Source: Daucus carota subsp. sativus | Lineage: Eukaryota; Streptophyta; Magnoliopsida; Apiales; Apiaceae | Reading direction: 5' to 3' | Length of the DNA stretch: 64,000 nucleotides | NCBI RefSeq assembly: GCF_001625215.2 | Contig: NC_030381.2 | Span: 54,175,214-54,239,213, forward strand | Shown: positions 1 to 28,828 of the stretch, piece by piece | Layout: the number at the start of each line of letters is the position of its first letter | How positions within the stretch are numbered: position 1 is the first letter of the stretch | Made by a program: the position numbers and the translations under genes | The notes under the pieces: model-generated | Databases searched by the model: none | What the model was told of the DNA's origin: nothing | What the model saw: only the letters and a program-made list of their open reading frames with translations

Positions 1-212
1 TACCCAGGTGGGATTATTTATATTACTCATTATAATGCATGATTGATTTTGTCTTTTTAATTGATTTTAGGAACTTTGGATTCAAGCAGAACTCTTGGCA
101 ATTTAAGCACAACCTAATTTGATTTTCTGTTGAACTTATTTGCAGAACTCTATACAAGGTTTTAGTTTATAGTTGTAATTTATTTTCTTGAATAATTTTT
201 ATTTGCAAATTA

Positions 213-1212
213 ATGCTTATGGTATTTGTTATACGGTTTGCGTGGCAGCAGGATTGGCCTCAACCCAGCAAAGTTATGTCTTGCAATCCACAAGTCGGGG
301 TGCAGCAACACCGGCTCCGAGACGGTCATGTTGCAGTTCATGAGATGTATGCTTCAAGTGAGAACGTGAATCCAAATACAACATCCAGAATAAAGCTTGC
401 GTTTGGTACATCATCTCATCTTCAGTGCAAGAAATATGGGAGTCAACACCATGCATCAGGTAATGCCATTTTCTGATGCTTAGTTTATAATAATGATCCT
501 TGCCACTGTTTGCACTTTGTTAGTTCAGAAAAACAGAATTTTTTCTTGAACAAGAGAAAATGATATGAGGGATCAATGCCGCATCTACTGTTTGTTGGTT
601 CAGTCACTATGACCTATGGGCACAATAAGCATTCTGGGCAATAAGGAGGCATGAGAGATCTGCAGTTATTCTATTTCTCTGTAGGAGAACATTTGCACCC
701 TCATTTGTTGTTTTCAGTAGACTTGATCAAGAAACCCATTTGACTTCTAATTTGCCAATCCACAAGTCAAGTATGTCCTATGTACCGGGATGGCAATTTA
801 GTTTCATGGAATATAAAAGATCTTTGTAGACATAGTATAAGGGCTGCCACCCCTCAGAGTGCATAAGTTCTCAGAAAGAAGTTTTGTTGTCATTTGTTTC
901 CTTAAAGATTCAAAGATCTTTAATACATAATATGTATTAGTAGCCACTTGGACCATTCTATAAGGGCCAAACATAAATAAAAATATGATCTTGCCAAGTA
1001 AGCTTAAGCATGAGTATGCATGACATCACTGTGAGACCAAATTATGTTATAGTCTTAACACATTCTAAAATACTACAAGTAATGTCAGGGAAAACTCTTT
1101 TGTTATATAATTATGTTCCCTTTATTTTGTTATTCCTTTTATACTTATAAGATCAAATAATACTTTCAATCCAGGTTCACGTCTGGAAACTCTAACTCTC
1201 GCCGATAATTAA
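213..1212 (+). other. Doubtful two-exon gene fragment
   Basis: An open stretch 213-459 ends in a good donor (CAG then GTAATG). A second stretch starts after a good acceptor at 1175, joins in phase, and stops at 1212, giving the C-terminal residues SRLETLTLADN. The coding potential is weak and I recognise no domain. The start at 213 may lie inside an intron, because another plausible acceptor (GCAG) sits near 252. It lies upstream of a Helitron-like 3' end at 2741, so it could be a captured gene fragment, or the tail of a gene entering from the left edge. Confidence 0.2.
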
Positions 1213-2458
1213 TGCCAGATGCCATCGCATCCTACCTAAGCATCAGGTGAAATAAACTTTTGTGATTTCCGGATATTATTTGCTCATTAACTTCTTTAAT
1301 TACCTGATGTTCCCTTAATGCATTTTAATTATTTCCTTTTTTACTTACAACGTAGGTTCCAATATTCCAAATCGAACTCAATCCAATCATCCATGTCATG
1401 GGTTTCAAAAATTAACTCAAGCCTCACGATATGATGCTGCATCATTGTCTAATCATGACGTTTAGTCCAAATTTGTATCTTTATTTTTATACATGTGTAT
1501 TCTGAGTATTGCCTGGTATTGTAGGTTCCCAAAAATGTTCCTGTAATACTTTCATGTAGCTCAGAAATGTTCCGGTAGCTTTCATATATTGTATTAAGAT
1601 TGCTATAGAATGTGACTTTTTCTTACTCAATATAGACCTCATCTTCTTGAAAACAGCCTGCTTCTTATTACTTTTGTTATATTGACCGTTACTTTGAGTT
1701 CTGTTATATTGACCATTACTTTAAGTTTTGTGGCTATTACAATTAACAATGTGTTAGTGCTTTGCATATCATGCTTTGCTCATTTGGTCGGCAGGTTTGA
1801 GACTATGATTCTAAATTACAAATTACAAATTACTATTTGGTTATGCTCTCCGTAACTATTCTGGTTTGGTAGATGTTCATTGCCATTATATTAATGTGAA
1901 GCGAGTATTAGACCTGAATTTTAACTCGGACTCTAACTTGGACTGCATGAACATTCGACTCAACTTTGGCCTTGGTGAAGTCTTTCAAAATCTGGCACCT
2001 ACTATCATGGTAGTAGTGCAAATAAGCTACTCAACACTTTAAACAACATGACTTTCAAAATTTATGGTGTTAAATGCTTTCTTATAGCTAAATCTTCAGG
2101 TGGTATTGTTATCAAAGAGCCATATGCCAACACTTCGGCACGTGGTCAACTGGTTTAATGAAGAATAAAAATTAATCAGACTTCCAAGAATTGAGTGGTG
2201 CATTCCAAGTGTGATCGCATATAATTGAGAGCTACTACCGCGTTCATTTGTTTTGGTGATTATCTTCATGTGTGGAGACAGTGATAGAATGCAGTTCAGT
2301 GTCATAAGGCTTTGTTCAGGTTCAGGTTTTTTGCAGAGATATACAACCAGTGGACCTGTGCCTGCAAATTAAATAATAAGATATGGGTCAAGGCATAATA
2401 ATTGTGGTCTACGCGATATAGTTAGTACAAATTACAATCAAATATTTGAATATAAATA
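1213..2458. other. Intergenic or repeat DNA, no gene seen
   Basis: No convincing coding exon is visible. The part from about 2000 onward is a diverged copy of the sequence at about 3870-4440; shared blocks surround TTGGTG, GTGATA and AATAATTGTGG. I read it as the body of a repeat element ending at 2744. Confidence 0.5.
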
Positions 2459-2744
2459 CTCCCTCTGTTTTTTTTATATGTCACTTTTGACTTGGGCACG
2501 TACCTTTAGGTGCATTGACCGGATAGCAAAAATTATTTTTTTTAATTGCTTTTTTTGTGAATTAAAATTTTGGTTATATATTTTTATTCATAAAAAGAAA
2601 AATTCAAAAATAATAATTTTAACTACCCGGTCAAAGCACTTAAAAGTGTGTGCCAAAAAATCAAACGTCATATATTAAAAAAACAGAGGGAGTAATATAA
2701 GCATCACCGTGTGCGAAGCACGTTCGCACACGCAAGAATACTAG
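2000..2744 (+). mobile_element. Helitron-like 3' end, copy 1
   Basis: A perfect 10-bp-stem hairpin (2708-2732, arms CGTGTGCGAA and TTCGCACACG, 5-base loop) is followed 8 bases later by CTAG at 2741-2744. This matches the usual Helitron 3' terminus of a hairpin then CTRR. The base after CTAG is C rather than the usual T, so the exact end is uncertain. The upstream sequence is related to the copy ending at 4479. The left boundary was not found. Confidence 0.45.
2459..2692. mobile_element. Stowaway-like MITE (CTCCCTC ends)
   Basis: The 234 bp element begins CTCCCTCTGTTT and ends AAACAGAGGGAG, a clear terminal inverted repeat. A TA dinucleotide lies at each flank (2457-2458 and 2693-2694), as expected for Tc1/mariner-type insertion. 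It has inserted into the Helitron-like repeat that ends at 2744. Confidence 0.85.
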
Positions 2745-3324
2745 CCGGCTGGCAAAAGAACAATTTTCGGCTGGCAAAAGAAGGGTCAGAACATGAATGA
2801 ACCCACGTGTCTACGGGTTTTGAAACATCCGGTTATGTAGCTCAAGAATATGCGGCTGGAGGTTAATTCCACATAATCAGTTGTTAAAATGGTTCAACAT
2901 ATAACATATGTTCTTTTGCATAGTCTTGATATTTTTTTGGCATTTTAACTTGGTGTGTTACTTGGCACAATCAGAAATGTTCTATTCTACATGTCATGCT
3001 GTACAGGTTTTCGCATTTTGTCGGCTAACTGAGAAGTGAACTCCTTGCACCAGGATAATGTAGTTTATGATTTCTATACTGTATTCTTTTATCTCAAATA
3101 AGAATAAGAAAAATTACTTAGCACACAATTATTTTATGATTTTCTGTAACTCAAATACAGATTGTGTATGATTAGAACGAAGTTAAGTTTGTAGAATGTA
3201 AAAAGTACATATTGAAAATTTTTATTCTAACTAGAAATTACTTTGTCAACTATCATCAAAATAATCATTTCAATTCATTAATACTATTTTAGTCCATATT
3301 CAAAAATAATTAAGTTATTTTTAA

Positions 3325-3440
3325 GGACATTATTAACTAATTTGTTTATTATGTTATTTGATAATAAAATATTTTTTAAGGACATTAATACTATTTTATT
3401 TGTTTATTATATTATTTGATAATAAATATTTTTTAAAAAT
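3325..3440. repeat. Short tandem duplication, AT-rich
   Basis: Two diverged copies of a unit of about 60 bp lie side by side. Each carries TTGTTTATTAT, TTATTTGATAATAAA and a TTTTTTAA tract. Confidence 0.6.
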
Positions 3441-3869
3441 TATTGTGATTAAACTTTTTCAAATATTTACCTGATGTTTACATATTTATTTGTCATTATA
3501 TTTGAAGTGTATTACTAAAGACATTGTAATAAGCTTAACTCAAATTAGTTATTAAGTTTTTTAAGATATTTCACTAATCTGCTTAATATATGTCTGTATC
3601 GTTATTTTTAAAGTGCATTATTAAATTGATTATCTACTCCATGATCAAACTGAATGAGGAGATCATCATCGGTTCCTCAATGTTCACTTTTTCATTCATA
3701 TTCGTATTTTCAAACTATTCGCAATAGATGTTAATTAAGTTAGTTGTGTTTTTCCAAACTTTATAGAATGCTTTAGATTAATGTTACATCCAAGCCTTAT
3801 AGATGGCTTTGCATTTGGTCCGAAGTATTTTATATTTTTGACTACTTATCAAATTTAACAACAGTGTCG

Positions 3870-4479
3870 CACTTGGATGAAAATAAGACGATCCTTTCAA
3901 TAGCAAGAAATAAGCTAAACAAACTTTAAAGCATTGGTTCACAAAGTGATTAAAGTCTGCACGTGCAAAGCAATGTGACCAGTTTAGAATACTTTGATCT
4001 ACAGCTTATATTCTGATTTAAGTTTATCCCAGAAACTATTTCTGACGATTTAAACTTATCCCAGAAACTACTTCTGGCATGACGAGAGATATTATTTCAT
4101 TCCTTTGTCTTGGTGCTTATTTTCAAATATGCAAGCGGTGATAAAATGTAGTTCATTAGTCTCGGGCTTTGCTCAAGTTTTTGTATTTTGCACAAATAAA
4201 CAATCAGATGTCCTGTGTTTGCATGCACTTTGTTTGTTTTGCCTCAAATTAGAAGGTTAATGTTCCGATCGTGTCTGAAGCATCTGATATTCAGTCTGGT
4301 CTAAAAAATTAAATTTGAGTGAATTACAGATTGAATCACCGAAAGTTTAATAATAAATTATAGATCAAGGTGTAATAATTGTGGTTCACACGTTACAATT
4401 TAGAACACATTAAAATTAATTATTTAAATATTAAAATTATAAGCATTACCCGTGTGCGAAGCACGGGCCAAATTGCTAG
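3870..4479 (+). mobile_element. Helitron-like 3' end, copy 2
   Basis: The sequence ends with the hairpin CCCGTGTGCGAAGCACGGG (4449-4467), an 8-base spacer, then CTAG at 4476-4479 followed by T. That is the textbook Helitron terminus, with insertion between A and T. The preceding 500 bases are recognisably related to those before 2744. No Rep/helicase coding sequence is visible, so this is a non-autonomous element. The left boundary was not found. Confidence 0.6.
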
Positions 4480-7400
4480 TTATCCTAATAGCAACATGTA
4501 CTAAATTAATATTAATTATGGTTTGAGGCCCATGATGTTAACACTATTATCAAATTGAAGTCTTGTTGTCAAAATTTTGTTATTTATCAATTATATTTAG
4601 TTTCGTTCATCAGAGCTGGTAGTTAATTAATCTTCCTGGATTTTGTTTGATAGTACCTGGTGACGTAAAAGTTTCGGTTACTTATCCGATGGAAGGTGCT
4701 GAATTAGCAACAACAATTTAAGGTTTTTGTACACCTTAACTTAAGATTTAAATGTAAAATATAATGGATATGGAGTATGGAGGTTTAACTATCTTATTTC
4801 CGTTTTTTAAATATCTTTTTTTTTGAAGATAATATTTTAAATATCTTTTTTTTTTGTTTTGTAGGGAAAACGATATTATTTATATGCTTCTTGAGCATAA
4901 CATACTTTAAGAAGTGTTAAATATGGTTATACGCGTTTGTATCAGAACACTTGTTCCATGATCATTCATATTTATTTATTTTATAGTAAAATATGTTGAA
5001 ATCGAGAATCGACACTTTGATATTTTAAAATCTCCGATCCAAAACTTGAACTTTTGAATTTATTGAACCCCACATTTTTGATTTCAGATTCGGTTTTCAG
5101 ATTATATTTATATGCAATTATCTAGAAAAAACTTGGATTTCTAATTATATCCATACCTAAAAATTTTGAGTTTCATGTATATCCCGATCCAAAATCCGCG
5201 GGATTCGATTCAGAACCGATTAGGGAATAGATAAAAAAAAATTGGATTTGAATTTGAATTATGTCTTATGTGATCCGATTTCGATCTAATTATCATCCAT
5301 GTTGGTCGGTTGCTATAATTTTTTCAAATTTTTAAACCAATTTAAAAATAAACAAAACATGTTTCAAACTATTAACAAATTATCTATTAATATATTTTAA
5401 TATATTTTTTTTAAAAAATCGTCCAATAAAAGACATGGGAACATTTAATCATTACTTACAAAATTCAGAAACTTATTCCCATTTGCGCCGGGGAGTCCGG
5501 CAATGCGGAGACCTACTATGGAGTCAAGTCCGTTTACCTCTTTTCCGCAATCATTCATGTACATAATCTTCTTTCCATTTTCATGATAAATTATTTTTCC
5601 GTCTCATTTATTTCAATTATATTTGAACTTTTATATATCATATATTATTATTCACATTTAGTATTATTATAAATTAAATATTATTTATTTTAATATATTA
5701 ATTTAAATGAATAATAATAATGATAGACAAAAAAGGGAAAAAATTTAACGGCATCGCGACAGCATAATATAGGATATCGAGTCAAACCGTTGACAAACTC
5801 ATGTGAATCAAATGCTCAAACATGCAAATACGTGTGAGATATTATTATACGGCATGATTACAAAAACTAATTGTTTTTGTTCGTAGGTTAAGTTGATAAT
5901 TACAATAAAAAGTTATTCGGTAAGAATATCTATAGTATGACTAAAATATTATAAAGTTAAATATATAAAATTTGATGAACGATGTTTCAATCATATTTAA
6001 AAATAAAATATTGTTATCATTTTAAATTGTTATAACTTAAATATGTATTTTATTACGATATACTTGATAATGTATAATCTTCTTATAAGTGTCTTGTGTA
6101 AAATTATAAAAATTGACTGAAATTCTAGATAAACAAAATTTTAAGTAAAGACATTTCGTGGATATGTTTCTAGATTGGATTTCCCAAACTAGGCCCATAG
6201 TTGCAAAACACACATTTTTGCCCATAAATGTCTTAATCTTAACTTAATGGTTTAAAGGTATTGGGTCTTCTAATATGCTATGTTTGCTCAAGTAGGTTGG
6301 CCCATGAACTGATGAACCCACGAAACTTCTGACATACTGTATCTGCTAGAACCCAAATAGCAAATTTTTGCAATTTTATTTTTATGGAGTCAAAATATCA
6401 ATTATATATATTATAATAAAATTTTATACTCTCTTTTATCTATTGTATAAGTTGTTTGACTTTTTAAACAACATATTTAAGAGGTTTGACCATATATTTT
6501 AAATTAATATTTTTAAATTTTCCTTTCTAAAATAAAAATATTTATACTATATTTTTGTATAATTTTTTTAAAAATAAATTTTAAATATGTGGTACCCTCC
6601 TGTTCCAAAAGAAACAACAGAGGATAAACCCATCATATGGGCTATCTAATCGTGCTCAATATTAATATAATTGTTTACATTCGCATTTTTATGATTCTCT
6701 TGACGCGAGAGTTTGTATTTGGTCCGCTGTGTTAACTTTTATTCTCACTAAAAATATATGAAATATGGTGTTATTATCCTCTCAGGCGTGCTTCACTATG
6801 ATCGAATAATACCCGATTACATTTTCCGGAGAGATTATTTGGCACGGTCAGGTTTTGAGCAATGAAAATGTCGTCATTGAGTTTTGCTGAAACGACGTCG
6901 TTTAATAAGAGAGTTGGAGGTGCTGGTGCCTGGTAGTTGTAGGAGTAGTAATTAGATTAATGATTCCGGGTTTGATAAAGAAACTAATTAAAATTAAAAC
7001 TTTTTTTAGTTAAAATAATTCTGTTATTTTGTGTTCGGAAAAAAGATTCCAAAAATCATTATTTTAAGCTAAATGGACCTCAATGTCATGTTCTGAAAAG
7101 GTCTCCACTTTCACTTCAAGACACGACTTGAAGTTGTGTTATCATTTTTTTTAAGGAAAACATGACTTGAATTTGCTTCTTCAGCTGAAAACACGACTTT
7201 AAGTTGCGATTTTATAACACAACACAAAATCGCGTTTTGAAATGGCAGCTAAGGGACATTTTTTTAAAAAATAATATAAACTTTTTACTTCTGAATAGTG
7301 ACATTTGGGACCAACAACCCTTGTGTTCATCGTATCATACCAGGAAATCATATAGCATAATATAAAGGTGGGGTGCTGTAGATGATAAGTGTTGGCATTG

Positions 7401-7684
7401 TAGCAGTTTTTGCATCTCAGTACGAATACAATGTTACTGAGTATTAATGTTAGTGACTTGAACTCTCGATATCTTGTTATGATATGATCATAAACTCAAT
7501 CCCACCTTAAATTCGAAGGTGTTATTTCAGATTCATGTAATTCATATTTGTAAACTGTAGACGATTTATAGAACTTGATCTTGCATTCAGGTGTTTATCA
7601 TACTCTTGTAACTTTATTTGGTCTTACAATAATATTATTTGATATGCTTATTAGGCTCAAATCATTTCACCGGAATGAAGTTGT
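4480..7684. other. Intergenic AT-rich DNA
   Basis: No supported gene. It contains a degraded CTCCCT-type element (about 6429-6610), a copy of a dispersed repeat (6665-6772) that also occurs twice in the peroxidase intron, and short repeated ACACGACTT-AAGTTG words at 7120-7220. Confidence 0.6.
6665..6772. repeat. Dispersed repeat, copy 1 of 3
   Basis: About 105 bp, with blocks TGTTTACATTCGC, ATGATTCTCTTGACGCGAGAG and GTGTTATTAT. It matches 18510-18612 closely and 18686-18790 more loosely. The family is unknown. The TTCTCTTGACGCGAGAG block contains a small inverted repeat. Confidence 0.6.
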
Positions 7685-9470
7685 TTAAGCACAGCCTTTA
7701 GCCGCAAACCCTAACTTCCCTCCTGCAACATCATAGACAACTTGCATAGTCTTCTGCTGAACATTCCCGAAAATTAGCGCATCAGATGGATCACTGTTAG
7801 GGGCGAAGGCGAGACACACTCGATTCGAATTGGGCACGTACACAACTCCGGAATCATCAAGATCAATTTTCGTGTTACCACCGAAAACAATGCTGATGGT
7901 TGGAATCTTCATTGTACCGTATATACTCAAGTCGTAACATGTGTCAAATATGGAAACTGGTCTCGCCAGTGGATAACTGGTCATCTGTTTCCTGAACGCG
8001 TCTCGTAATGCTGTATAAGCTGGCAGAGGTAAACGTGTGATAATAGTGCCAGAATCGATGATGGATAAAGGGGTACTGGAGAACACAGTAGGACTAATTT
8101 GAAGTTTCTGGCCGCCTACGTACATTGCAAGAATGTCGATGGAGTAAAATGTTTTGTCTGGCGAAGTACTGAATGGAGTGTATTGTACTGAGTTTGAGAC
8201 GGATGATTTTCCGAAAGTCAAGTACCCTGTTTTACTGGCTTTAGACGGAAGACAGTAGGAGAAAACTTGTCCGTATTGTTTCGATGTTTGTTGAAGAATA
8301 GAAAGTGGATCTCTGCCTAGTCCGAGTACTCCAGCGGTCTGACCAAACCGACCTTGATTGTTTTGGCCACATCCGAAGAAGAAATTGGGGACGACATCGG
8401 TAGGAGTTAGCGTTAATGTATCTTTCGCGAAGAAACCTACCGAGGAGGAGTTGTCACCGTATAAGGTTCTGTATATACATGTGGTTCCCCCAGCGATACA
8501 GTCTGGAGTGATCCCTGTCGCGGATTTAAGTTTATTACACTGAGGTGTACGACATGAGATGTTCGAATAAGTAGAGGATTTTGAAGGATCGAAAATCAAA
8601 TCGGTTGGGCCTGGTCATAGCATGATATTGAGCATGGTTCACATTGTGTCCATGTCAGGGAACTTCCAGTGTCGAAAACTAGGGACAAGTCGTTTTTTGG
8701 TGTTCCCAGACCGAATGTGACAAGGTAGTTGCTAGTGGCGAATGACAAGCCTGATTTTGCTGGAAACGTGACAAAATCAGTGGAAGCGAAGGTGTTTCGA
8801 GCTGCATTGAAACCAATTCGCGAGTTGATTGATTTTACTCGGGATTCATCGGCAGCTAGGAGTTCTAATGCTGATGGCATTGACGATTCTTTTGTTTTGT
8901 GGCATGGTCCATGTTTGTGCACTACTCTGAGTGATGAAGATGATGGTAGTTTGTGACCTGTTAAATCGTTACACTGCTGTTAGAACGTAATATAGACAGA
9001 ATTATGTACAGAATGACGTGGATTCCCTGTCAGTATTCTTACTTCGTGAATACTCTGACTCAGGAACGAATGTGTAGAACATGTATATATAAGCATGTAG
9101 AGATTAATGATATGATATTTTTTTAAATGCTTACAAGTTTGTATGTGCATGTGTCATTTGACTAGGCTTATAAGTAGTTTATAAATCGAAAATATATATG
9201 TAATTTTCGGTTTATAAACTAGTACCGAGCCCTTGAAAGAGTTCAAAGGGAGAAAAGAAAGGAACCTTGTGAAGAGGAGTCGCAGACAGAATCTGGAAGA
9301 ATAGAACTGAGTTTAATGGTATGAAACTCATGTGATTCTGAGGCCAAGAGCTTTCTGTCAGCAGCCGCAACTCCATTATTGAAAAAAGAAACCAGGACTG
9401 AGCTTGCTACGAGTAAACAAAAGAAATGATCAAGTGGATTAGAGGAGGAAACAGTAGTTGGATTTCCCAT
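7685..9470 (-). pseudogene. Nepenthesin-type aspartic protease, copy 1, frameshifted
   Basis: Two exons are clear: 9470-9266 (start at MGNPTTVSS, a hydrophobic signal segment, then the propeptide) and 8957-7685. Both catalytic motifs are present, FDTGSS and IDSGT, along with the HGPCHK propeptide motif and the many cysteines typical of the plant nepenthesin/CND41-like A1 family. Such enzymes are secreted or organellar acid proteases. The reading frame is broken at about 8598 by a 5-bp tandem duplication (GATTT twice) that makes an immediate TGA after AQPI. The rest of the second exon stays open to the normal stop. Without the insertion the protein would be about 490 residues, a usual family length. 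A TATA box (TATATAAAGG, about 9545-9552) remains about 75 bp upstream. This copy forms an inverted pair with the one at 15807-17495. I infer a recent pseudogene, though a sequencing error at the duplication is possible. Confidence 0.85.
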
Positions 9471-9544
9471 TGAGCAAAGGAATGTAATTCTGTTCAAACT
9501 GCATGCAGCTGCTCTTCCAACTATCTTTCCACAATCACTAAGCC

Positions 9545-9552
9545 TTTATATA
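9545..9552 (-). promoter_or_regulatory. TATA box of protease copy 1
   Basis: Read on the minus strand the sequence is TATATAAAGGCTTAGTGAT, lying about 75 bp before the start codon. The same motif is conserved in front of the inverted copy (15729-15735), so the promoter was duplicated with the gene. Confidence 0.6.
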
Positions 9553-10303
9553 GCTGGTTAGTATACACTTGACCCTAGATGTATGGTTTTCGTGTATTCT
9601 TAACTTATCTCGTTATATAGAGTATATGTTTGTGCTTAAAGTTTCAACATGCATTTTGAAGTCTCTTAAAACAAGCAAAAATTTTAAAAGTAAATTATAA
9701 AATTATATTTTAATAACATTTTGAAATACATGTTAAGTTATAAAAAAAATTATATAGAATGGGCGAGGCGGAGGGAGCATAAATTTATTTGGATTGTAAC
9801 CCTTTCTTCCAGGTCACCCAGGTAGGACAACTCACCCATTATATGCTAAGGGAAATTCTAAGAAAATAAAAATAAAAAATAAATTAATTAATGAAATATT
9901 TTTTTAAATATCTATATTTTTAAAAGATTCAGAGACACGGTCCAAGTTGTATATAAAATTACAAGTCTGGGTTGAAATTAGTTGCAACATTCGTATTTGA
10001 GATTCCATATATGATTGCACTGTATTTTTGAAATTTTTCTGCAACTTGGGTACTTTTCAAAAAAATAAAATAAAATTGTATTTGCTGGTAACAAATGTTA
10101 TATTATTTAAAAATATATAAATAATATTAAAAAATAAATGAGCATGATTTTTTTCATAATAAATTTTTAATTTAAGATGTCTTGTAAAGTTACTGGAACT
10201 AAGATCGCCAAGCACCCAAGAGTTGCACATAAATGCTCCATGATGACGAAGACTTGTCTTTTCTTCTTCCCCACTTATCTATATATTTTTGTCTAGCATG
10301 TAA

Positions 10304-10679
10304 GAGCAAGTCCAACAATGTCCTAGTTAGAGCCCCAAATATAATATAAAATATGATGTCCTAGTGATTTAGGACATGGTTATGTAAGTTCAACTCCAAC
10401 AATGTGCCTTATTTTCAATATATGTTTAATATTTTATTATTAAAGACTCCCTTTCATAATTAAAGCACAACATAAAGTAGAGGGAGAAAGAGAATGGATA
10501 TAAGATTTTATATTAAAATATAGGATAGGGCAAGGAGAGAAGTGCCCTATTAATAAGGCTTCAAAGAGGTTGTCTTAGTGATATAAGGCATCACTAGAAC
10601 ACTGTTGGATCAACATTTTTCATGAAATGCCTCAAATTATGACTTAGGACAAGTTATAGGGCTTCTCTTGGACTTGCTC
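10304..10679. mobile_element. Tourist-like (PIF/Harbinger) MITE
   Basis: 376 bp with termini GAGCAAGTCCAACA and TTGGACTTGCTC. It is flanked by the 3-bp target duplication TAA (10301-10303 and 10680-10682), as PIF/Harbinger elements produce. No coding capacity. Confidence 0.85.
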
Positions 10680-10789
10680 TAACTTCTATTTTCTTACACA
10701 TCTTAATTCTCAAATGCAGAACATGTTTCATATGCTTCTGCATGCATCTACAGCTAAACATATCTACTCATAATTAAAAAAAATTAGGA

Positions 10790-10885
10790 GCTAAATTTTT
10801 TTTTTTGTAGGAACTAATCTAATTTTTACATTTTGGCTAAAAAATTTTGTAGGAACTAGTCTAATTTTTACATTTTGTTGTATAT
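10790..10885. repeat. Tandem pair of about 50 bp
   Basis: Two copies of a unit containing TTTGTAGGAACTA(A/G)TCTAATTTTTACATTTT lie in tandem. The right arm of the inverted duplication has related, less regular sequence near 14690-14760. Confidence 0.6.
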
Positions 10886-11101
10886 ATAAAAAATAAGTTT
10901 TTGTTTTTTAAAATTCAGGAGGCTTTAGCCCCTCGTCCCTTCTTCCACGCTGGTGGTAGAAGTCGTTCGAGATCCAGGATGTAAGATATATGTGGAAAAA
11001 CATGACCAGCAGCACTGAGTACTTGCTCATTTAAATTATGTTCGCGACTTCGAGTACCCGAAATATTATTATCTTATCAAGTAGTAAAAGCTTAGACTAC
11101 A

Positions 11102-11157
11102 TGCGTTAACTTAGATTTTTTTTTTTTTTTTTTTTGAAGTTTGCGTTAACTTAGATT
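11102..11157. repeat. Tiny poly(T) insertion with 16-bp target duplication
   Basis: TGCGTTAACTTAGATT occurs at 11102-11117 and again at 11142-11157. Between them lie only a T run and GAAGTT. Read on the other strand this is a short A-tailed insertion, which looks like an extremely truncated retroposition product. Confidence 0.6.
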
Positions 11158-11283
11158 AGTTGTTCATAACTTCTGAATTTTTATACTTACACGGAGGTGG
11201 AAGTAGAAGACATCTGAGGATTTAACTAATAAATTAGTACGGTTATTTTATTTTAATCAACTCCATTAAAAATATTTTTATAT

Positions 11284-11384
11284 AACCTTTTTTCTCAAAT
11301 TCGAAAGTTTGAAGTATAATTCAGTACGATTATTTTATTTGATTATACTTCAAACTTTCGAATTCGAGAAAGAAAGTTTTATAA
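11284..11384. repeat. Inverted repeat around 11330
   Basis: The words CAAATTCGAAAGTTTGAAGTATAA and, just downstream, its near-complement TTATACTTCAAACTTTCGAATT form two arms of about 40 bp with a spacer of about 25 bp. AAAATATTTTTATA and TATAAGAGTATTTTT extend the arms outward. This is probably a small foldback remnant. Confidence 0.6.
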
Positions 11385-12718
11385 GAGTATTTTTCAATAG
11401 GGTTGACTAAAATGATTTATAGAATATTTTGAGATAATTATTAAATCTGTAAGTTACTATGATTCGAAGATACGATTATATTTTAAAAATTCATTTTATT
11501 AATATTTTAAATTGTTATAAATAAAATACATCGTTTCAATATGTTATAAATGACATGAATTATTTTTATAGATTTTTTACAAGTTTGTACATATTCGACA
11601 AACATAGTCAATATGAGAAAGTTACAAACAAGTTAATGTATAATCACAATTATTTTCTTATAATTTTTATATTTTTTTGATATATAATATATATTAATAA
11701 TTTTTAACTCAGAGTTTACCTGGCGGGAGATTCTCGTTACTTTACATGCCAATGAAGTTTAACACGGAAGTGTTATAGGATTTGAGAGACTTGAAGTTTC
11801 AGTGTTTTATGTCATATCGATGGATCTAAACGACACAACAAGAAGGAAAGCTTTCAACTCAATTGTTCCATGCCTCATGTGATTAATTTGTGAACACCCA
11901 TTGGCTTAAAAGTTGGAATCTTCCATTGCGTTTTGTTTTGCTGAATCTTACTAGCTGTGTTTTATTCGCATGTGAGCTGTGAGTTTGTGATATGACATCC
12001 TGTATGGGTTATGTCTGGTACAGTAGTTTGCATATTATTTCGGGAATGGCCGAATTTGAAACCCATTCTCAAAAATCACGTGTCGACTAGACTTTAAATA
12101 AATAATTAACATTTTCTTTATTTTTATCTTATATTTTAATATTTTTAAATAATTTGATGATATAATTATTTTTTTAAATTTAACTTTTTATGAGTATGAT
12201 ATGCAAGCAGAATTATAATTTGCACAAAGTAATAATTTTATTATACAGTGAAAACGCCTAGGTGTAATTTAAAGTGTTAAATAATAATTGAACTTACTTA
12301 TTCGTAAAAACTTTAAATTGAGCAAAAATTGAGATGATAGTTCTTTTATTTCTTTTGTTTTGCCAAACCCCTTATATATTTTTAAATAAGATTAATCCAC
12401 TATTTCTGGTACATACTTTCTTGTCAATTCGAATTTTGAAGAAAATAAAAGACTGCAATTAAATATAAGAAATCCCTTTATTCAACAAAAAAAAAAACCC
12501 ATATAAAATCGATTTTGGTAGTTCTTTCTCTCTCTTTTTTTTTCCATGAAAAGCCATATTTTATTTTTTAAAGGCATACTATAATAATTCATTTCCAGCA
12601 GAGCTTGAAAATGAGAGCGTGGATTTCATAATCAATCATATCCATGTTTTAGTTATTTTCTGTAGACATTGGTAAATGACTAATCAACTTGGATCAGGTG
12701 ATTAGAGCAATCACAAAC

Positions 12719-13333
12719 GGGGCTGTTTGGCTGAGCTTAAAAGAAGTGACTTATTGCTTAAAGTAAAGAAGTGTATTAGAAGTGAGAAGTTGGTTTGGAC
12801 TTATAAGCTGTTATAAGTGTTTGGATACCGCGACTTATAAATTTTTAAGTGTTTGGATAACTTAACTTATAAGCTGGTATAGTTTCGTAATATTGTAATA
12901 TAATTATTTGATATTTACGAAATAAATTGAAAAAAGTTGATGAAAATATTAGATTAGACTAGTATTTATATTATATAAAATATGTCTCACATTTAAATAT
13001 TTAAGTGATTTATAAGTGTGTATATTTGAGTATTTCATAAAATTGAAGATAAAAGTTTAAATAAAAAAAATTATATTCAATCACCTCAAATATGAGATAA
13101 CACGAAGGAGACGGAATAAATAAAAAATAAACAAAAATAATAAGTACTGTAGCGGAATGTTACTGGTTTAGAACTGCAGTGCATGGCAGGAAGTTTGAAA
13201 AAAGCTGGAGTCCAAAAAAAGCTCCATATCGTAGCTTTTTTCCTTAACTTCTTTTACATATTTTAAGTGCTTAGTGTGGTTTGCCAAACATACAGCATAA
13301 AAGAGGAAGTGGACTTCCAGTTCCCAAACGCCC
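12719..13333. mobile_element. hAT-like MITE
   Basis: About 615 bp starting GGGGCTGTTTGGC and ending CCAAACGCCC, which are near-complementary termini. The inner sequence (AAAAGAAGTGACTTATTGCTTAA) recurs near 30557 and, in looser form, at 34625-34880. A target duplication could not be defined. Confidence 0.6.
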
Positions 13334-13337
13334 ACGG

Positions 13338-14004
13338 GCTCATTTGTTAAATCTGAATGAAATTTTCTCGATCATTAAAGTTCTGGATGAGTGATAAATC
13401 TGAATACAGAATGGATGATCTTGTTTGTTAAATATTGAATTCTTCTTAACCATAATTATGGTTTTTATTAAAATTTTATCATTACGGTTGGTATTTTTAA
13501 AAAATACCTCATTAGCCCATATAAAATATTTTACTATTTTGATTTTTAAACCTAATTTAAAATGATGAATAATTCTTGAATGATATTTTTTCATATTTAT
13601 TATTATTATTATATTAATAATATATATTAATCCTTATAGTTAATCTAATTAAATATTATACATTAACTAATTTAATCATAAATAAAAATTATCAACTTAA
13701 GAAACTTTTATTTTATTAAAGATTAATTTAAAAATTAAAGATTATATTGGAGTTGTGGAAATTATTTATCAATATATGACTCCCATAATAGTTGAATAGA
13801 TAAGTGGTGACAGAGTAATAGCATAGTAATACGTAAAAGCACAGCAAAAAGATTTCTGGACGACAGACCCTCTTGTTTTCGAGAGGTTTCGTCCAGATGA
13901 ATTTTGATTCATCCAGCTATTCAATAATTCTATCAAACAGTCTTAACCATCGAATATGACGTCATTCAGTCCAGTTTGTTTCATTCACTCGTTAACAAAT
14001 GAGC
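13338..14004. mobile_element. MITE with GCTCATTTGTTAA ends
   Basis: About 667 bp. The left end GCTCATTTGTTAA followed by TGAATGAAA is matched, inverted, by TTCATTCACTCGTTAACAAATGAGC on the right. It sits directly beside the preceding element. The superfamily is uncertain, and no open frame of note is present. Confidence 0.65.
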
Positions 14005-14473
14005 TTCTTGTTTACTCTACGGAGCATTATTGCATTCCCAAGTGCAAACATTTCTAGTCATCGACGTGATCGATTTTGAATATCATATACATAAACTGCA
14101 TTACATACACAACAGTTTAAAAAGAACACATAATATTATATTTGTAAAAATGATTTATTAAGAATAAAATACATAATTAAGTGTCAATTAAATTTAATAT
14201 ATGATATGTAACGTGAAACTTATCCAAATTATTAATATGAGATGTTATAGAATCTAAGAATAAAATCATATATATATTTTTTGTAGGATTAATATTATAT
14301 TATTTTTAGTCTATATATATTATTAAATATGTTAGATATTATTACTATTCATAATAAATATTTAATTATATTTATAAAGATCCTATCAATTATATCATAA
14401 TAGTATCGAATTCGCGAACTTAATATAAATGATCCTGTACTCATTGTTGCTGACTTGCTGGTCATGTTTTCCC

Positions 14474-14587
14474 GCATCGGTTTTTCTGTGGTGTGCCATG
14501 GGCACACACTAAGCGCTAACTTGAGTATGGTGCATTTTTATTGGTCCTCCAATCGATGGCCCCTGCATTTGCACCAAGTCCACCAAT
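14474..14587. mobile_element. Palindrome-tipped MITE, truncated copy
   Basis: It begins CGGTTTTTCTGTGGTGTGCC and resembles the element at 30035-30220 through GGTCCTCCAATC, GATGGCCCCT and GCATTTGCACCAAGTCCA. It then stops exactly where the right arm of the inverted duplication begins (CTGGATCTCG at 14588). One base of the terminal palindrome is lost. Confidence 0.7.
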
Positions 14588-15728
14588 CTGGATCTCGAAC
14601 GTTTTAATTCTACACCAGCGTGGGAGAAGGGACGAGGGGCTAAATTAAGCCTCATGAATATTAAAAAACAAAATACTTATATTTATATATCAAGAAATTT
14701 GTAAAAATTATTTTAAAAAAAACAAAATTTGTAAAAAATACTTTAGTTCCTATAAATTAAAATTTTATTATTAGAAAAAACCTGCTCCTTAATTTTTTAA
14801 CATTATTTATACATTTCTATATAATATAATATTCCTTATTAGTATTTATGTATAGGATTTTTTCTAAAATTATCCAATTTTTTTTTAAAAAATACGACGC
14901 AACCTTATATGCAATATCAATTATAACTATTGCAACCGATTTCAACCCGGCTTGTAATTTTGATCATATTTTTAATTCTCTTACAAATATAATATTTTTC
15001 TAAATTTTTATTTCATCAATTTATTCATATTTTTAAAGTCAAGGTTTAAATCCAAGGTTAGTTATTTTTCATCAACATAAATTTCTAATATTTTTTTTAT
15101 AAAGATTAGTAGTAAATCATAAGTTACTTATAAATCATTTTTAATTTTATTATTATTTTTTTTATAATTTATAAATCACTAATAATTCAAAATTATTTGA
15201 AAAGACATTTTAAACTCTAAACTTATGAGATTAATCCCATTAAGTGATAGTCATAACTTTAAACTCATTCAAACGATTTTCACTGAACCATAATCAAAAT
15301 TAATTTATACTTCATCCCTCCCACCAATTATATACAATTTTCTTACATTATTTGACACATACTTAAGATTTTTATAAAAATATAATTTTATAATTTATTT
15401 TTTAAAAAATTGGTTCCGAATAGAATTTTAAATTTTAAATAATATTTAAAAAATTAAAAATAACTTATAAAATCATATTCTATAAAAAAAATTTAAAAAG
15501 GTGCCCAACTTTCCATAAGAAATGTATATGAACCAAAATGCTTGGCGCACATAATTGTACATAATAGATTTTAACTAGAATGATCCACCTCTATTTGGGT
15601 GGACAATTTCAATTAAAATCCATTTATGTGCACAATTTTGTACACCTACTATGAAATGGCACAGAGGCAAGATAATATAATACATGAGAAAACCATGCAT
15701 CTACGAACAATTGTATACTAAATCCATC

Positions 15729-15735
15729 TATATAA
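15729..15735 (+). promoter_or_regulatory. TATA box of protease copy 2
   Basis: TATATAAGGCTTAGTGAT lies about 72 bp upstream of the presumed start codon at 15807 and matches the inverted copy. Confidence 0.6.
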
Positions 15736-15806
15736 GGCTTAGTGATCGAGGATAGATAGTTGAAAGAGCAGAAGCAGTTTGAAAAAGAATTACATTGCTT
15801 TGCTCA

Positions 15807-17495
15807 ATGGGAAATTCTACTGCTGTATCCTCCTCTAAATCACTTGATCATTTCTTTTCTTTACTCATAGTAAGCTTGGTCCTGGTTTATTTTTTGAATA
15901 ATGGAGTTGCAGCTGCTGACAGAAAGCTCTTGGCCTCGGAATCACATGAGTTTCATACCATCAAACTCAGTTCTATTCTTCCAGACTCTGTCTGCGACTC
16001 CGCTTCACAAGGTTTCTTTCCTTTCTTCCTTTAAACTCTTTCCTTTATCATCACTTGTTATTATGTTTGTGTATTTTTAAATATCAGAGTGTGAGGAGAA
16101 GGAGTAACGAGGATCGTATATTATATTCTACACATTCGTGAGTCAGAGTACTCATGAAATAAGAATGACAGGGAATCCACATCATTCTGTACATAATTCT
16201 GCCTTTATTATATTCTAACAGCAATGTAATGATTTAACAGGTCACAAACTACCATCTCCTTCATCACTCAAAGTAGTGCACAAACATGGACCATGCCACA
16301 AAACAGAACAATCGTCATTGCCATCAGCATTAGAACTCCTAGCTGCCGATGAATCCCGGGTAAAATCAATCAACTCCCGAATCAACTTCAACGCAGCTCG
16401 AAACACCTTCGCTTCCACCAAATCCGTCACGTTTCCAGCAAAATCAGGCTTGTCATTAGGCACTAACAACTACCTTGTCACATTCGGTCTGGGAACACCA
16501 AAAAACGACTTGTCCCTAGTTTTCGACACTGGAAGTTCCCTTACATGGACACAATGTGAACCATGCGCAAGATCATGCTATGACCAGGCCCAACCGATTT
16601 TCGATCCTTCAAAATCCTCTACCTATTCGAACATCTCATGTCATACACCGCAGTGTAATCAACTTAAATCCGCGACAGGGAGCACTCCAGCCTGTACCAC
16701 CGAGGGCACCACATGTATATACGCAACCTCATACGGTGACAACTCCTCCTCAGTAGGATTCTTCGCGAAAGATACATTAACGCTAACTCCTACCAATGTC
16801 ATCCCCAATTTCTTCTTCGGATGTGGCCAAAACAATCAAGGTCTGTTTGGTCAGACCGCTGGAGTACTCGGACTAGCCAGAGATCCGCTTTCAATTGTTC
16901 AGCAAACATCGAAACAATACAGACAAGTTTTCTCCTACTGTCTTCCGTCTACATCCAGTAAAACAGGTTACTTGATTTTTGGAAAATCATACGTCTCAAA
17001 CTCGGTACAGTACACTCCATTCAATAGTTCGCCAGACAAAAGATTTTACTCCATCGACATTCTTGCAATGTACGTAGGCGGCTAGAAACTTCAAATCAGT
17101 CCTACTGTATTCTCCACCCCCGGATCTATCATCGATTCTGGCACAGTTATCACACGTTTACCTCTGTCAGCTTATACAGCATTAGGAAACAGATGACCAG
17201 TTATCCACTGGCGAAACCAGTTTCCATACTCGACACATGTTACGACTTCAGTAAATACAGTACAATGAAGATTCCAACCATCAGCATTGTTTTCGGTGGT
17301 AACACGAAAATCGATCTTGATGATTCCGGAATTATGTACGCGTTCAGTTCGTCGCAAGTGATGTGTCTCGGCTTCGCCCCTAACAGCGATGTATCTGATA
17401 CGCTCGTTTACGGGAATCTTCAGCAGAGGACTATGCAAGTTGTCTATGATGTTGCAGGAGGGAAATTAGGGTTTGCGCTTAAAGGGTGTGCTTAA
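15807..17495 (+). pseudogene. Nepenthesin-type aspartic protease, copy 2, nonsense plus deletion
   Basis: Exon 1 is 15807-16011 (MGNSTAVSS with hydrophobic segment) and exon 2 is 16241-17495. Both join in phase at a Gly codon, exactly as in copy 1. The DTGSS and DSGT active-site motifs are both encoded. Two lesions are visible against copy 1. A CAG to TAG change at 17083-17085 ends translation after MYVGG, before the second catalytic aspartate. A 13-bp deletion near 17184 shifts the frame after SAYTAL. Downstream sequence to the normal stop is otherwise well preserved. Copy 1 is intact at both these sites, and this copy is intact at copy 1's insertion, so the two copies died independently. 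A truncated product of about 345 residues is possible, but it would lack the second half of the active site. Confidence 0.88.
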
Positions 17496-17919
17496 ACAAC
17501 TTAATTTCGGTGTCGATAAGTGCCGGAAAATATGAAATATTGCCTTCAGTCATCGGAAGAAATGATTTAAGGCATATTATTGAAAGAACAAATAAACACT
17601 TATCATGAATATGCAATAAAACCTTCGAATTTAAGATTTCCAAAAGATACATACATCAAATGATATTATTGAAATCCGTCTGATTACTGATTAATCGGTT
17701 AATCGGTTGAATTGTAGAACACTGATTAAAAGCAAGTAACTCGCACAATTTGAACGCAAAGTTTGATTTATTAATTAATCGAAGCCACACCATTTACTAT
17801 GACTGATTGGAATTTTCAACGCAAAATTTGTATTTTTAAATTCTGGAAAAAGTCTCTGACAAGCTGAACTTATTTGGTCATGGCAACTCTGGAGGCAAAA
17901 GCCTCTGACAACACCAAAC
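17496..17919. other. Spacer between protease copy 2 and peroxidase
   Basis: No coding signal. It presumably holds the 3' end of the protease transcript and the peroxidase promoter. Confidence 0.5.
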
Positions 17920-18034: not shown

Positions 18035-19607
18035 ATGATGTTAACATATATAATGCTGCTGTGTCTGAGTTACTCAGCTCATTCTTCGGAGCTTGCCTTC
18101 GATTTTTATGCTGCTTCGTGTCCAATGCTGGAAACCATGGTGAAGGACACGGTGAGAGCAGCTTCGTCGAATGATCCGAGAGTGCCAGGGAGGCTTCTGA
18201 GGCTGTTGTTTCATGATTGCTTTGTGGAAGGGTGTGATGGTTCGGTTCTGGTGCAGGGGAATGATACGGAGAGGTCTGATCCTGCGAATGCTTCGTTGGG
18301 AGGATTCGAGGTGATTGAAGTGGCTAAAAATGTGGTGGAGATGTTCTGTCCGGATACTGTTTCTTGTGCTGATATACTTGTTTTGGCTGCTAGAGATGCT
18401 GTCGAATTTGTAAGTCCCCAGAAATATCGATCTTTTTTTGATTGAATTATGAATGGTTATGTTACTAAAGAAGGTAGTTGTGTTTTTTTGATAATTGAGT
18501 GTAGTATGATTGTTTATATTTACGTTTTCATGATTCTCTTGATGCGAGAGTCTTGTGCACTGTGTTAATTTTTGTTCTCGCCAAAAGTGTATCAAATGTT
18601 GTGTTATTATCATGGGAGTTGAGTGTCATACTTTTGTTGGGCAAAGAGTATAAATCACTTGTTAAGTGAAAATAACAAGAAGATTGTTTATATTCATATT
18701 TTCGTAGTTTCGCTGATGCGGGGTTCTTGTGCAGTTGTTTTCTAAGCTAAAAATGTATTGAATGTGATATTTTTAATTTTTTATCATGCAGACTGGTGGA
18801 CCAGGAATTGAAGTTCCAACAGGTAGAAAAGATGGGAAAATTTCCTTGGCATCTAATGTGAGACCCAATATTGTGGACACAAGTTTTAGTCTGAACCAGA
18901 TGAAGCACATCTTCTCTGCCAAAGGCCTTTCTTTCGATGACCTTGTCACCCTCTCAGGTGTGCTTTCACTACCATAAAAATAACGGTTTTTCTACTGTGT
19001 CGATTGTGTCTCGACATATGCTAAACACTAAATTTTCATATTTGATTTATTTTGATTGACTTTTATTTCTTAATAATGATGAACCCTGTGTATATGCAAA
19101 AACTATACAGGAGTGAAATGCATATAATTTAGCATTTAGCATGACAAACCGTAAAAATATGTAAATAAGCAACAATTTTCCTGGACAGGGGCGCACACAA
19201 TAGGATCAGCACATTGTAGCGCATTCAGTGAGCGGTTCAAACTCGACTCGAAAGGCAACCTCAAGCTCATTGACACATCACTTGACAGCACTTACGCAGC
19301 TGAGCTAACACAACAATGTGGCGCATCACAAGCTCAGACATCGATTACAGTTAACAATGACCCCGGAACTCCATTTATTTTCGATAATGAGTACTACCAG
19401 ATGCTGTTAGCTCACAAGGGACTGTTCGAGTCTGATGCAGTCTTGCTTGACAATGCCAAGAGTCTGAAGAAAGTAGAAGAGTTTGCGAATGACAAAAACA
19501 GATTTTTCGAAAATTGGGCTCAAGCATTTTTGAGGCTTGCGAGTACTGATGTTAAGACAGGGGAGGATGGTGAGATCAGGAGGTCCTGTTCTGTAATTAA
19601 CGGGTGA
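18035..19607 (+). CDS. Class III peroxidase, PER46-like
   Basis: Secreted haem peroxidase that uses hydrogen peroxide to oxidise phenolics and can generate or consume wall radicals. Exons are 18035-18409, 18792-18957 and 19189-19607; all junctions are GT-AG and in phase, giving 319 residues. A signal peptide (about residues 1-18) precedes the mature part. The distal site is RLLRLLFHDCF with Arg-56 and His-60, and the proximal haem ligand is His-183 in SGAHTIGSAHC. All eight conserved cysteines are present (ASCP, HDCF, GCD, FCP, SCAD, AHC, QQC, RSC). From memory the protein is closest to Arabidopsis PER46 (TERSDPANASLGGF, SNVRPNI-DTSF). ATG at 18038 is an alternative start. Intron 1 carries two copies of a dispersed repeat. 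The gene looks intact. Confidence 0.95.
18510..18790. repeat. Dispersed repeat, copies 2 and 3, in peroxidase intron 1
   Basis: Copy 2 (18510-18612) has ATGATTCTCTTGATGCGAGAG and GTGTTATTAT. Copy 3 (about 18686-18790) is more diverged. Both match 6665-6772. Copy 3 runs up to the acceptor of exon 2. Confidence 0.55.
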
Positions 19608-24932: not shown

Positions 24933-27630
24933 TCATCCATTGACTGAAAAAGTGAATTCATCATCGGTCAATCCTCGTGAAGAGTAAATGTCATCACTTG
25001 CATAAGAAGAGTGATCTTCCTCACTGTTTCTCTCCTTAAGCTCATTAATCTTCTCAAGAGCTTCCTTCAAATCCCACCTTTTCTCCACATTCCATTCGCA
25101 GCAACACATTCCAATCTTCAGTAGTTTTAGCATTTCACCCTGTCCATTCGCAGTCCCTTTCATATCTTTATCAAACACCTCTCCTGTCCACTCTTCTCGA
25201 ACAACAGAATTTACCCAGCTCGCTAAATCTGCATTTCCCCCCTTTCCCTGCTTTAAGTAATTTGCAGGGAACTTTCCTGTCAGCATCTCAAGTATTAGAA
25301 TTCCCAGACACCAAACATCCGTCTTTCTGGTGAGGCGGTTATTTTGTGCCAACTCGGGGGACTTGTAGGCTACCATAAACTGATAGGCATGTTCTTTATT
25401 GATTACAGGAACTAAAGCATAATCCGATAACAGAGGTACAAATGTTTCATCTAGTAGCACATTGGACGACTTTAAGTGACCATGGGGTAGAGCTAGGCTG
25501 GGAAAAGCTTTGTATAGATAATTTAATCCTTTGCCCACTCCTTTAATGATTCTTAGGCGTGTTGGCCAATCAAGTCCTGGTTGATTAGGTTTGAGATTAC
25601 CTGTGTACAAAACACATGTTAAATCTGAATTTTATGTGCAGGCTCCACAACTAGAGCACTCTATCGTGAAGGCAATGCCAGAAATTTCATGAAGTTGACT
25701 ATGCTATACATGAAGTTGTTGCAATTGATAGAATCAACTTACCATGGAGATGACTAGCCAAGCTACCATTTTCAGCAAAGTCGGTGATCAAAAGCTTTTC
25801 TTCCTTTTTGTAGTAAAACGCCACAAACGGCAGTAGATTAGGGTGCGATAGACTTCCTAACTTCCGCATATGCTCATAGAAATCTTCTTTTCCCACATTA
25901 CTCATCTGCTTATATCTCTTTACAACCATGGCTGGTCCACTTAAAAGGATAGCCTTGTATGATGATCCAAAGCTTCCGCTGCCCAAAACTTCAGCAGATG
26001 CTCTGAGGAGGTCTTGCAACTCGAACCTCTCTGTGCCATTCCGCACAAAATGTAGTTTTCCAGTCTGTTCAGTTTTCTTGTAGTTATCAGCTGTCTGTTT
26101 AGGCAATCCAATTTCCTTTCTGTTATCATAGTTATACTTGGTCTCTTTCTTCTGAGATTTTGTTGACCCTAGTCTTTCGACTTTTGACGTTTTGCGTCTG
26201 TTTCGCCTGTGAAACAATAATAAAGTAATGACAATAACAGCTAGAGCTAGGGCCCCAACAGACGCAACAATGATGGGGACTTTCGGGATGGATTTCTTCT
26301 TGGATGCCGGACAATTGTTCAAAGGCTTACCACATAAATTGTTTCCTGATTCGCAGTGAAAGAAATATATGATTACTACAAATGAATAATTGATCGATAA
26401 AAGTGCCTTATTAAAGAAGAAATAGATTTTATTTTGCATGTTCTTTATGTTGCCATTAGTATATCCTTGATGTGCACCCAACATAATCTGTTGGTATAAA
26501 TTAAAGTTTGTTATAATTAGGACTTCAATTGTTATATATGGATAGCTTTTATTATGTTAAACTGTTCACAGTGAAGAAAACTTAGTTTTATTAATTATTT
26601 GAAGCTGATAAACTTTCTGGTTTTGTTGATTTTTAGGGCTAGCATGCATGGGTAAAATATATTGATTACTTCAAGGCAGATGCTTCAAAAACAAAGGTAT
26701 CTTTTAATTTAAATTCTTTTTGATATCTTCCTATATGAGACTGTGTAGCTTATAACATCTTCTTTACAAATGACAAATATACTAAAAAGAGAATGTGATA
26801 ATTTATAATCTAACCCAACAGTTTGTATTACTAACGCAAATTTGGTTGGACTGAAAGGATATTGGTAATTCATGAATGGATATAAATTATTATTTTAAAA
26901 TAAAGCTAAAAGCTCCTATTATACTCACCAGTTACCAGAATTTATAAATCATTATTTAAACATAAAGCTAGAAGATATTATAATACTTACCAGCAAAAAA
27001 GCTCGCAGTCTCATCGCTTAAGACAGATGGAATAGGACCTTCAAGTTTGTTGTTGGCAAAATTCGCTATCAAATCTTTTTGCTTAAAATTAGGTATTTCA
27101 CCCTCAAACTTGTTGTTTTGCAGCTGCAGATCTACAAGCTTAGACAGAGTGGCAAGGGAATTTGGAATTTTGCCAGTGAGACCATTGTTTCCCAGATAGA
27201 CTCTTCTCATCTGATTCATACCCTTAAAAGCATCACCAGGAATCTCTCCAGAAAAGTTGTTATTTGCCAGGTAGAGTGTTCGAAGAGCGCGGATTTTGTT
27301 GATGTTACTAGGAATTGGTCCGTCAAAGTTGTTGTTCATGAAGCTCACAGAACGCAGAGTTGGCAACTTTGACAGGGAATCAAAATTTATGGTGCCTGAA
27401 AGCCCCATGGATTCAAGTTGCAACCCATTTAAGACGTTTGCTTTGCAAAGCAAGCCATTCCAGTTCGCGTTGTTACCATTACACGGTGAAACATCTTTAT
27501 TCCAATTTTCTAGTGCACCGGCATTTGATAATGTTTTTTTGAAATCCAGAAGAATTTCTGTTTCTGAATCATCAGACAACCCGACAGCGATGCACATTAA
27601 CAGTACAAAGAGCAAAATAGCCCGCCTCAT
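24933..27630 (-). CDS. Pollen receptor-like kinase (LRR-RLK III)
   Basis: Plasma-membrane receptor-like kinase of the pollen PRK group, which in known cases acts in pollen-tube growth with ROP-GEFs. Exons are 27630-26991, 26345-25743 and 25600-24933, all in phase, giving 636 residues. It has a signal peptide (MRRAILLFVLLMCIAVGLS), an LRR N-cap (ALENWNKDVSPC, NWNGLLC), about five or six LRRs, a transmembrane segment (VPIIVASVGALALAVIVITLL) and a kinase domain. The P-loop is LGSGSFGSSYK and the ATP lysine is in MVVKRYK. The catalytic HRD is HGH and DFG is DYA, so it is probably a weak or dead kinase, as is common in this group. From memory the nearest Arabidopsis gene is At4g31250. The intracellular juxtamembrane region is basic and rich in Lys and Thr. 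Confidence 0.92.
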
Positions 27631-28828
27631 TATTTTACAACTTTTGTCCTGCTCGTGTGCTCTGCTTCTCCGAATTCTCAATGCAGCTCTTCTTCTTCTG
27701 CAGTGCCTGAGAATAGAGTTATGTTTGTGTGTAAGAAATGCAATAACGAAATGTGCTCGGGGAGGGACAAATAAGAAGGATGGTAATTGGTATTGACGAG
27801 GTCTTTCCTGCAAGCTATGAGCTGTTTAAATCAAGCCGGCATCGCTCAGTTTCAACACAGTGTTGGCCAGTTTGGCTTGATGGCATGCTTAAGATAATCT
27901 GGTATTTGTAGTTTCCTTGTTTACTATGATGCTGACATATAATACTACTAAATTATATGCATAATCTTGTTTGCTCTTGTTATTGATGATTAAGTTTTTT
28001 AATCTGTATTGTAATCTCAGCCGTCTCACTACTACTTACAACCGTATTGAAACAATCTAAATTCTTCATAGTAGTATTTTGATATCCAAGGGTGTCCTCG
28101 ACTATTCGTCTATAGCCCTAAATAGTTAAATTCTATAAAATTTACATATTGAATTTATTTTTTCGGATCATGTATTCATGTCTATTGTATTGAACTTATT
28201 TTTCGGACTTGGTTAGTATCATCAGCAAACCTTTATTCCTTGTATTTTTTGTCCCAGCTAGTCCGAAATATTGGATCCATCTCCAACAGCAAGTATAAAA
28301 TCAATTAAGGTTCTGTTTGCTTGGATAGAGCGAGGAATCAGATATGAAAAAGACTAAACTCTAGAGGTGCAAATAAAAAAAATAACTGCAGAGTTGTTAA
28401 TAATGGAATATTCATTTTCAAGGATTAGTATCCTTCCTGTAAATTACATCATTAATCATGATCTTTACAGAAATTTGGATACGTACTTATAGATTAATAT
28501 ATATTTTCGAAAGATAGTTACAAAACAAAAGATCATGATCTTTCAGACAGATACATAATTATAGATTTAACAAATATATTTACTTGTAACATATATGTTT
28601 ATTCACAGATTAAATATAAATTTTTATAGAACAATATAATTATAACTACCTTAATATATGCATAAAAAATAGAGTTACATACACAATTCTTAAACAAAAA
28701 CATGTTACAGACATAGCCTGATGAGCTATATATCCAGGGAGCAATACTATTACATGATCTGGGCTAATTAAGAACAGAAAGATAAGTTGAGGAAACTGGG
28801 CATTAATCAAATATCATCTATCAAACTC
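27631..28828. other. Receptor-kinase promoter and AT-rich spacer
   Basis: Upstream of the minus-strand kinase start. No gene is seen, and an extended open frame into 27813 has no ATG advantage. No clear repeat. Confidence 0.5.

Follow-up and report, generated by a model that had tools for sequence, protein, structure and literature searches.

A head-to-head pair of disabled aspartic protease genes in carrot: probable decay after an inverted duplication

Two damaged copies of one gene, placed in inverse orientation, raise the question of whether such a locus is merely decaying or whether it serves as a source of double-stranded RNA (dsRNA) silencing related genes elsewhere. This question was addressed for a stretch of 64,000 nucleotides of the carrot genome (Daucus carota subsp. 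sativus, contig NC_030381.2, positions 54,175,214 to 54,239,213), referred to here as the window, in which two plant aspartic protease genes of the TAXi type were found in head-to-head orientation. Copy 1 (9470-7685) is encoded by the minus strand, and copy 2 (15807-17495) by the plus strand. The pair very likely represents an ordinary case of duplicated pseudogenes, resulting from an inverted duplication, at least partial selection and, subsequently, an independent disabling mutation in each copy. A plant aspartic protease gene would have been duplicated in inverse orientation, both copies would have been subject to at least partial selection for some time, and each of them would then have taken its own disabling mutation. 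We infer this order of events, as well as the absence of a present function. The reading as pseudogenes rests on the TAXi domains present in both copies, the lesions private to each copy, the ratio of nonsynonymous to synonymous divergence (dN/dS), intron differences matching the synonymous divergence (dS), the higher ratio behind the stop codon of copy 2, and an observed/expected (o/e) CpG ratio of 0.95-0.96 in exon 2.

The inverted gene pair and its lesions

The head-to-head inverted arrangement reported in a first-pass annotation of the sequence was confirmed by inverted repeats, blastn matches and Pfam domains. The homologous arms lie in inverse orientation, and the intron was retained in both copies. 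Six ungapped inverted repeats, being 88-93% complementary, cover most of the gene body, whereas a seventh repeat, located upstream, is 74% complementary. The two main blastn blocks of the pair featured E-values of 0.0 and 2.6e-126, excluding chance as the origin of the similarity. TAXi_N and TAXi_C scored above the Pfam cut-off in both copies, with scores of 125 and 102 bits for pieces of copy 1, and of 192 and 60 bits for pieces of copy 2. Exon limits (Table 1) were deduced from the alignment of both copies and the splice-site consensus, not from RNA.

In accordance with the annotation, copy 1 was found to carry a 5-bp tandem duplication (AAATC repeat) with an immediate stop, and copy 2 a CAG to TAG change as well as a 13-bp deletion. 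Each copy is intact where the other one is damaged, since copy 1 is open where both lesions of copy 2 are located, the open reading frame (ORF) 7685-8599 on the minus strand spanning these sites, and copy 2 is open at the copy 1 lesion site, spanned by ORF 16276-17085 on the plus strand. Being private to each copy, the lesions must be later than the duplication or its last homogenisation, in agreement with the earlier claim of independent losses following the duplication. The TATA boxes described as kept were recovered in both copies as TATA-like strings upstream of the ATGs, identified by string matching.

The 188-aa (copy 1) and 349-aa (copy 2) products remaining after these lesions contain the first catalytic motif of plant A1 aspartic proteases (DTG) but lack the second (DSG). 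Since each product possesses only one of the two motifs, it cannot be a normal protease with two lobes. No third copy was detected within the window by blastn, nor by tblastn with three pieces. The closest relatives of solved structure, namely gastricsin (2.2e-9), plasmepsin V and cardosin, are distant, and were too far away to be used as an outgroup for polarising the changes.

Table 1. Coordinates of the features of the inverted protease gene pair within the window
Feature	Position	Strand	Basis or remark
Copy 1, exon 1	9266..9470	-	ATG at 9470, GT donor behind exon; alignment of copies and splice-site consensus
Copy 1, exon 2, frameshifted	7685..8957	-	TAXi_N split across two frames, TAXi_C in the second
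Copy 1, 5-bp tandem duplication (AAATC repeat)	within 8591..8608	-	Frame ends directly after; 188 aa left
Copy 1, TATA-like string	9543..9553	-	String match only; 83 bp before ATG
Copy 2, exon 1	15807..16011	+	ATG at 15807; alignment of copies and splice-site consensus
Copy 2, exon 2	16241..17495	+	ORFs, alignment of copies, Pfam
Copy 2, in-frame TAG	17083..17085	+	CAG in copy 1; 349 aa left, N-lobe only
Copy 2, 13-bp deletion	17177..17195	+	Junction inside stretch; alignment of copies
Copy 2, TATA-like string	15729..15737	+	String match only; 78 bp before ATG
Arm 1, outer limits of detectable, patchy homology	7506..11053	-	blastn blocks to arm 2, shuffles
Arm 2, outer limits of detectable, patchy homology	14406..17635	+	blastn blocks to arm 1, shuffles
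Spacer between arms, 3.35 kb	11054..14405	.	No listed ORF of at least 100 aa

Divergence of the copies and of the arms

Between the coding parts, 101 differences were counted at the 1252 aligned positions of exon 2 (8.1%) and 18 at the 205 positions of exon 1 (8.8%), in addition to two further coding indels of 3 bp each. Calculation according to Nei-Gojobori for 482 codons yielded a dN of 0.074 and a dS of 0.128, corresponding to a ratio of 0.58 (bootstrap 95% interval 0.39-0.89, with 0.55% of the bootstraps reaching at least 1), while the ratio amounted to approximately 0.74 by YN00 and 0.70 by maximum likelihood. Overall, silent divergence ranged between 0.11 and 0.13, and the intron differences (4/31 or 13%, and 11/118 or 9.3% in the 3' part) agree with dS. 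In the intron of copy 1, a snapback with 19-nt arms was also observed (9175-9221), within a region to which copy 2 showed no blastn match. The part following the stop codon of copy 2 yielded a dN/dS of 0.87, in comparison with 0.46-0.54 for the three preceding parts, and approximately 1.2 when the border was set slightly later; this nominal contrast is consistent with both copies decaying there. Constraint probably prevailed during part of the divergence, the evidence from the sequences being modest.

Several results weigh against the preferred explanation. In a simulation of neutral evolution with 118 changes, 3.5 stop codons arose on average, versus one seen in the pair, with 13.5% of 1000 runs giving no more than one. 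The neutral dN/dS obtained by simulation averaged 0.87, and 4.7% of 300 runs yielded a value as low as the observed one. A constrained phase is, accordingly, to be regarded as weakly supported. Furthermore, TATA-like strings and splice sites were kept, so that transcription of the copies is possible.

The high similarity of the coding parts noted in the first-pass annotation was upheld, whereas its arm limits (7685-10981 and 14588-17495) had to be extended, because the homology is wider, although patchy (Table 1). On the inner side, each of four upstream blocks outscored 200 of 200 dinucleotide shuffles. On the outer side, the block 7506-7537/17604-17635 outscored 500 of 500 shuffles, and no homology was detectable beyond it, where 405 of 500 shuffles attained the observed score. 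Another match on this side (7578-7635/17574-17637, 77%) involves the same arm 2 bases, and hence both matches cannot be in register. Arm 2 also contains an insert of approximately 110 bp (14478-14587), which is 81% similar to 30035-30153, with more partial matches located between 29611 and 30222; as judged from these matches, the insert and the 30035-30153 stretch appear to constitute a separate repeat family.

Outside the gene, divergence values depend on the alignment, since pairwise and whole-arm MAFFT figures disagree. The leader with the TATA-like string differs by 11.2% in the pairwise and by 19.5% in the whole-arm alignment, and the four upstream blocks by 23.7, 23.7, 6.2 and 15.6% as opposed to 41, 49, 18 and 67%, the last value being based on 3 positions. 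The two most divergent blocks feature a G+C content of 19-21% and may represent either fast-changing sequence or members of one repeat family that were inserted independently. A short element (10300-10683) with 16-nt inverted ends, 94% complementary, and no blastn match in arm 2 is also present in the upstream part of arm 1; it resembles a miniature inverted-repeat transposable element.

Gene conversion was considered as a cause of the coding similarity and rejected, because synonymous sites (0.11-0.13), introns (9-13%), the leader (11% or 19.5%) and one far upstream block (6% or 18%) do not differ clearly. The two upstream blocks of low G+C content, being at least 24% different, may speak for a step outside the gene, and the run-length test for gene conversion gave a weak result (P = 0.15 for the longest run and P = 0.045 for the sum of squares).

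Proposed capacity of the locus for double-stranded RNA

The first-pass annotation had proposed that the arms could yield dsRNA. According to this explanation, the pair would be a natural RNA interference (RNAi) locus, in which a transcript spanning both arms would form a hairpin to be diced, leading to the silencing of related aspartic protease genes at other sites. The arms share 24 perfect runs of at least 20 nt, totalling 761 nt with a longest run of 75 nt, and of the 3181 21-mer positions in arm 2, 287 have a match in arm 1, which is in favor of such a role. The layout of the locus argues in the opposite direction. The putative promoters, marked by TATA-like strings, are located between the genes and point outward, and both predicted mRNAs are consequently sense and unable to pair with each other. 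A hairpin would therefore need a transcript entering one arm at its 3' end and crossing the 3.35-kb spacer, with a length of up to approximately 10 kb for both whole arms. The spacer itself comprises a 53-nt inverted repeat with a 21-nt loop (11268-11394, 89% complementary).

Suitable driver genes were sought on both sides. The left flank (1-7684) contains no start-codon ORF of at least 100 aa, and no Pfam match was obtained in 15 of its 16 listed stop-to-stop frames of at least 60 aa (7199-7495 on the minus strand being left out); these searches cover coding genes only, and a non-coding promoter is possible. On the right side, the nearest gene found is peroxidase-like (Pfam PF00141, first part 18035-18445) and points away, in the same direction as copy 2. 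Receptor-kinase-like frames at 24933-27813 on the minus strand, their kinase part being identified by Pfam and their leucine-rich part by eye, do point to the locus and would fit an RNAi locus, but they lie 7 kb off, beyond the peroxidase gene. The window is A+T rich (33.6% G+C) and encodes plant-type genes with peroxidase, protein kinase, Myb/SANT-like and TAXi domains in its frames according to Pfam. An Rfam scan returned 0 matches at the gathering threshold.

Long germ-line methylation, one usual result of silencing, should deplete CpG. CpG decay as a mark of past methylation was, however, not observed in exon 2, where the o/e ratio of 0.95-0.96 exceeds the values for six other ORF stretches (0.42-0.85) and for the window as a whole (0.69), and lies near that of the spacer (1.00). 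Low values were obtained for exon 1 (0.36 in both copies) and the upstream part of copy 1 (0.40), and CpG to TpG/CpA changes account for 24 of 119 coding differences, indicating that some CpG mutation occurs. Since post-transcriptional silencing alone leaves no CpG mark, the undepleted CpG content does not disprove silencing.

Known inverted-repeat loci, as far as they are described in the cited accounts, provide precedents of several layouts. Inverted duplication has also been put forward as a model for miRNA genes (PMC3237417). PAI1-PAI4 of Arabidopsis Ws likewise consists of two endogenous gene copies forming an inverted repeat; however, these copies are in tail-to-tail order, and a foreign promoter fused to them drives transcription into the repeat (PMC3203196), whereas the carrot pair is head to head with its own promoters inside. 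GmIRCHS at the soybean I locus also represents a pseudogene of a gene family in the form of an inverted repeat (1,087 bp), but its arms are tail to tail, 78 bp apart and placed behind the promoter of the DnaJ gene GmJ1 (PMC13051633), in contrast to the 3.35-kb spacer and the lack of any such promoter found here. The soybean CHS1-3-4 clusters resemble the carrot locus in forming long inverted arms that are separated by several kb. They are identical over 10.91 kb, enclose a 5.71-kb spacer and produce small interfering RNAs (PMC6710647, PMC13051633), the details of the mechanism being called unclear (PMC13051633). A spacer of several kb is thus no bar to silencing, but the carrot arms, as judged from their sequence, are approximately 92% alike in the coding parts and patchy outside them.

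In rice, 11,956 non-transposon pseudogenes were reported, most of them originating from gene duplication, and two pairs of neighboring inverted pseudogenes featured duplexes of 154-185 nt as well as small RNAs (PMC2708354). As deduced from the strands and coordinates of the published table, one of these pairs appears to be head to head (minus copy on the left and plus copy on the right, 1,283-nt loop, 83% identity), as in carrot, and the other one tail to tail. Both differ from the carrot locus, which was characterized in silico and has arms of more than 3 kb, by their short duplexes and observed small RNAs. Among the loci compared, this one short rice pair is the sole apparent precedent for the head-to-head layout. 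The tail-to-tail order of PAI1-PAI4 and GmIRCHS, not shared by the carrot pair, is therefore no strict requirement, and the layout lowers the odds of silencing without excluding it.

Considering the outward promoters, the lack of a driver gene found on the left, the undepleted CpG content of exon 2 and the tail-to-tail order of PAI1-PAI4 and GmIRCHS, the proposed silencing role was not supported, and an RNAi locus is considered improbable. The same applies to the idea that the pair persists as a dsRNA source by read-through from an unseen outside promoter and tunes intact protease relatives, its layout being opposite to that of PAI1-PAI4 and GmIRCHS.

Remaining alternatives and significance

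It is very unlikely that a truncated product is used, with the start region and whole N-lobe of copy 2 serving as a non-catalytic decoy or inhibitor. The copy 2 stop does lie behind a TAXi_N match covering the whole profile (positions 1-176 of 176), and dN/dS is approximately 0.5 in the parts before it; however, this ratio cannot separate past from present selection, the second catalytic motif is missing and copy 1 ends much earlier. Inverted near-copies can be difficult to assemble, but assembly errors behind one or more of the lesions, implying a working gene, are hardly to be expected, given that the lesions are of three kinds (a 5-bp tandem duplication, a base change and a 13-bp deletion) and that the coding sequences differ by approximately 8%, sufficient to tell reads apart.

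The locus as it stands would add one more case of duplicate-gene decay. If small RNAs were present, it would represent a long head-to-head gene pair acting as a natural RNAi locus, as opposed to the tail-to-tail arrangements of PAI1-PAI4 and GmIRCHS.

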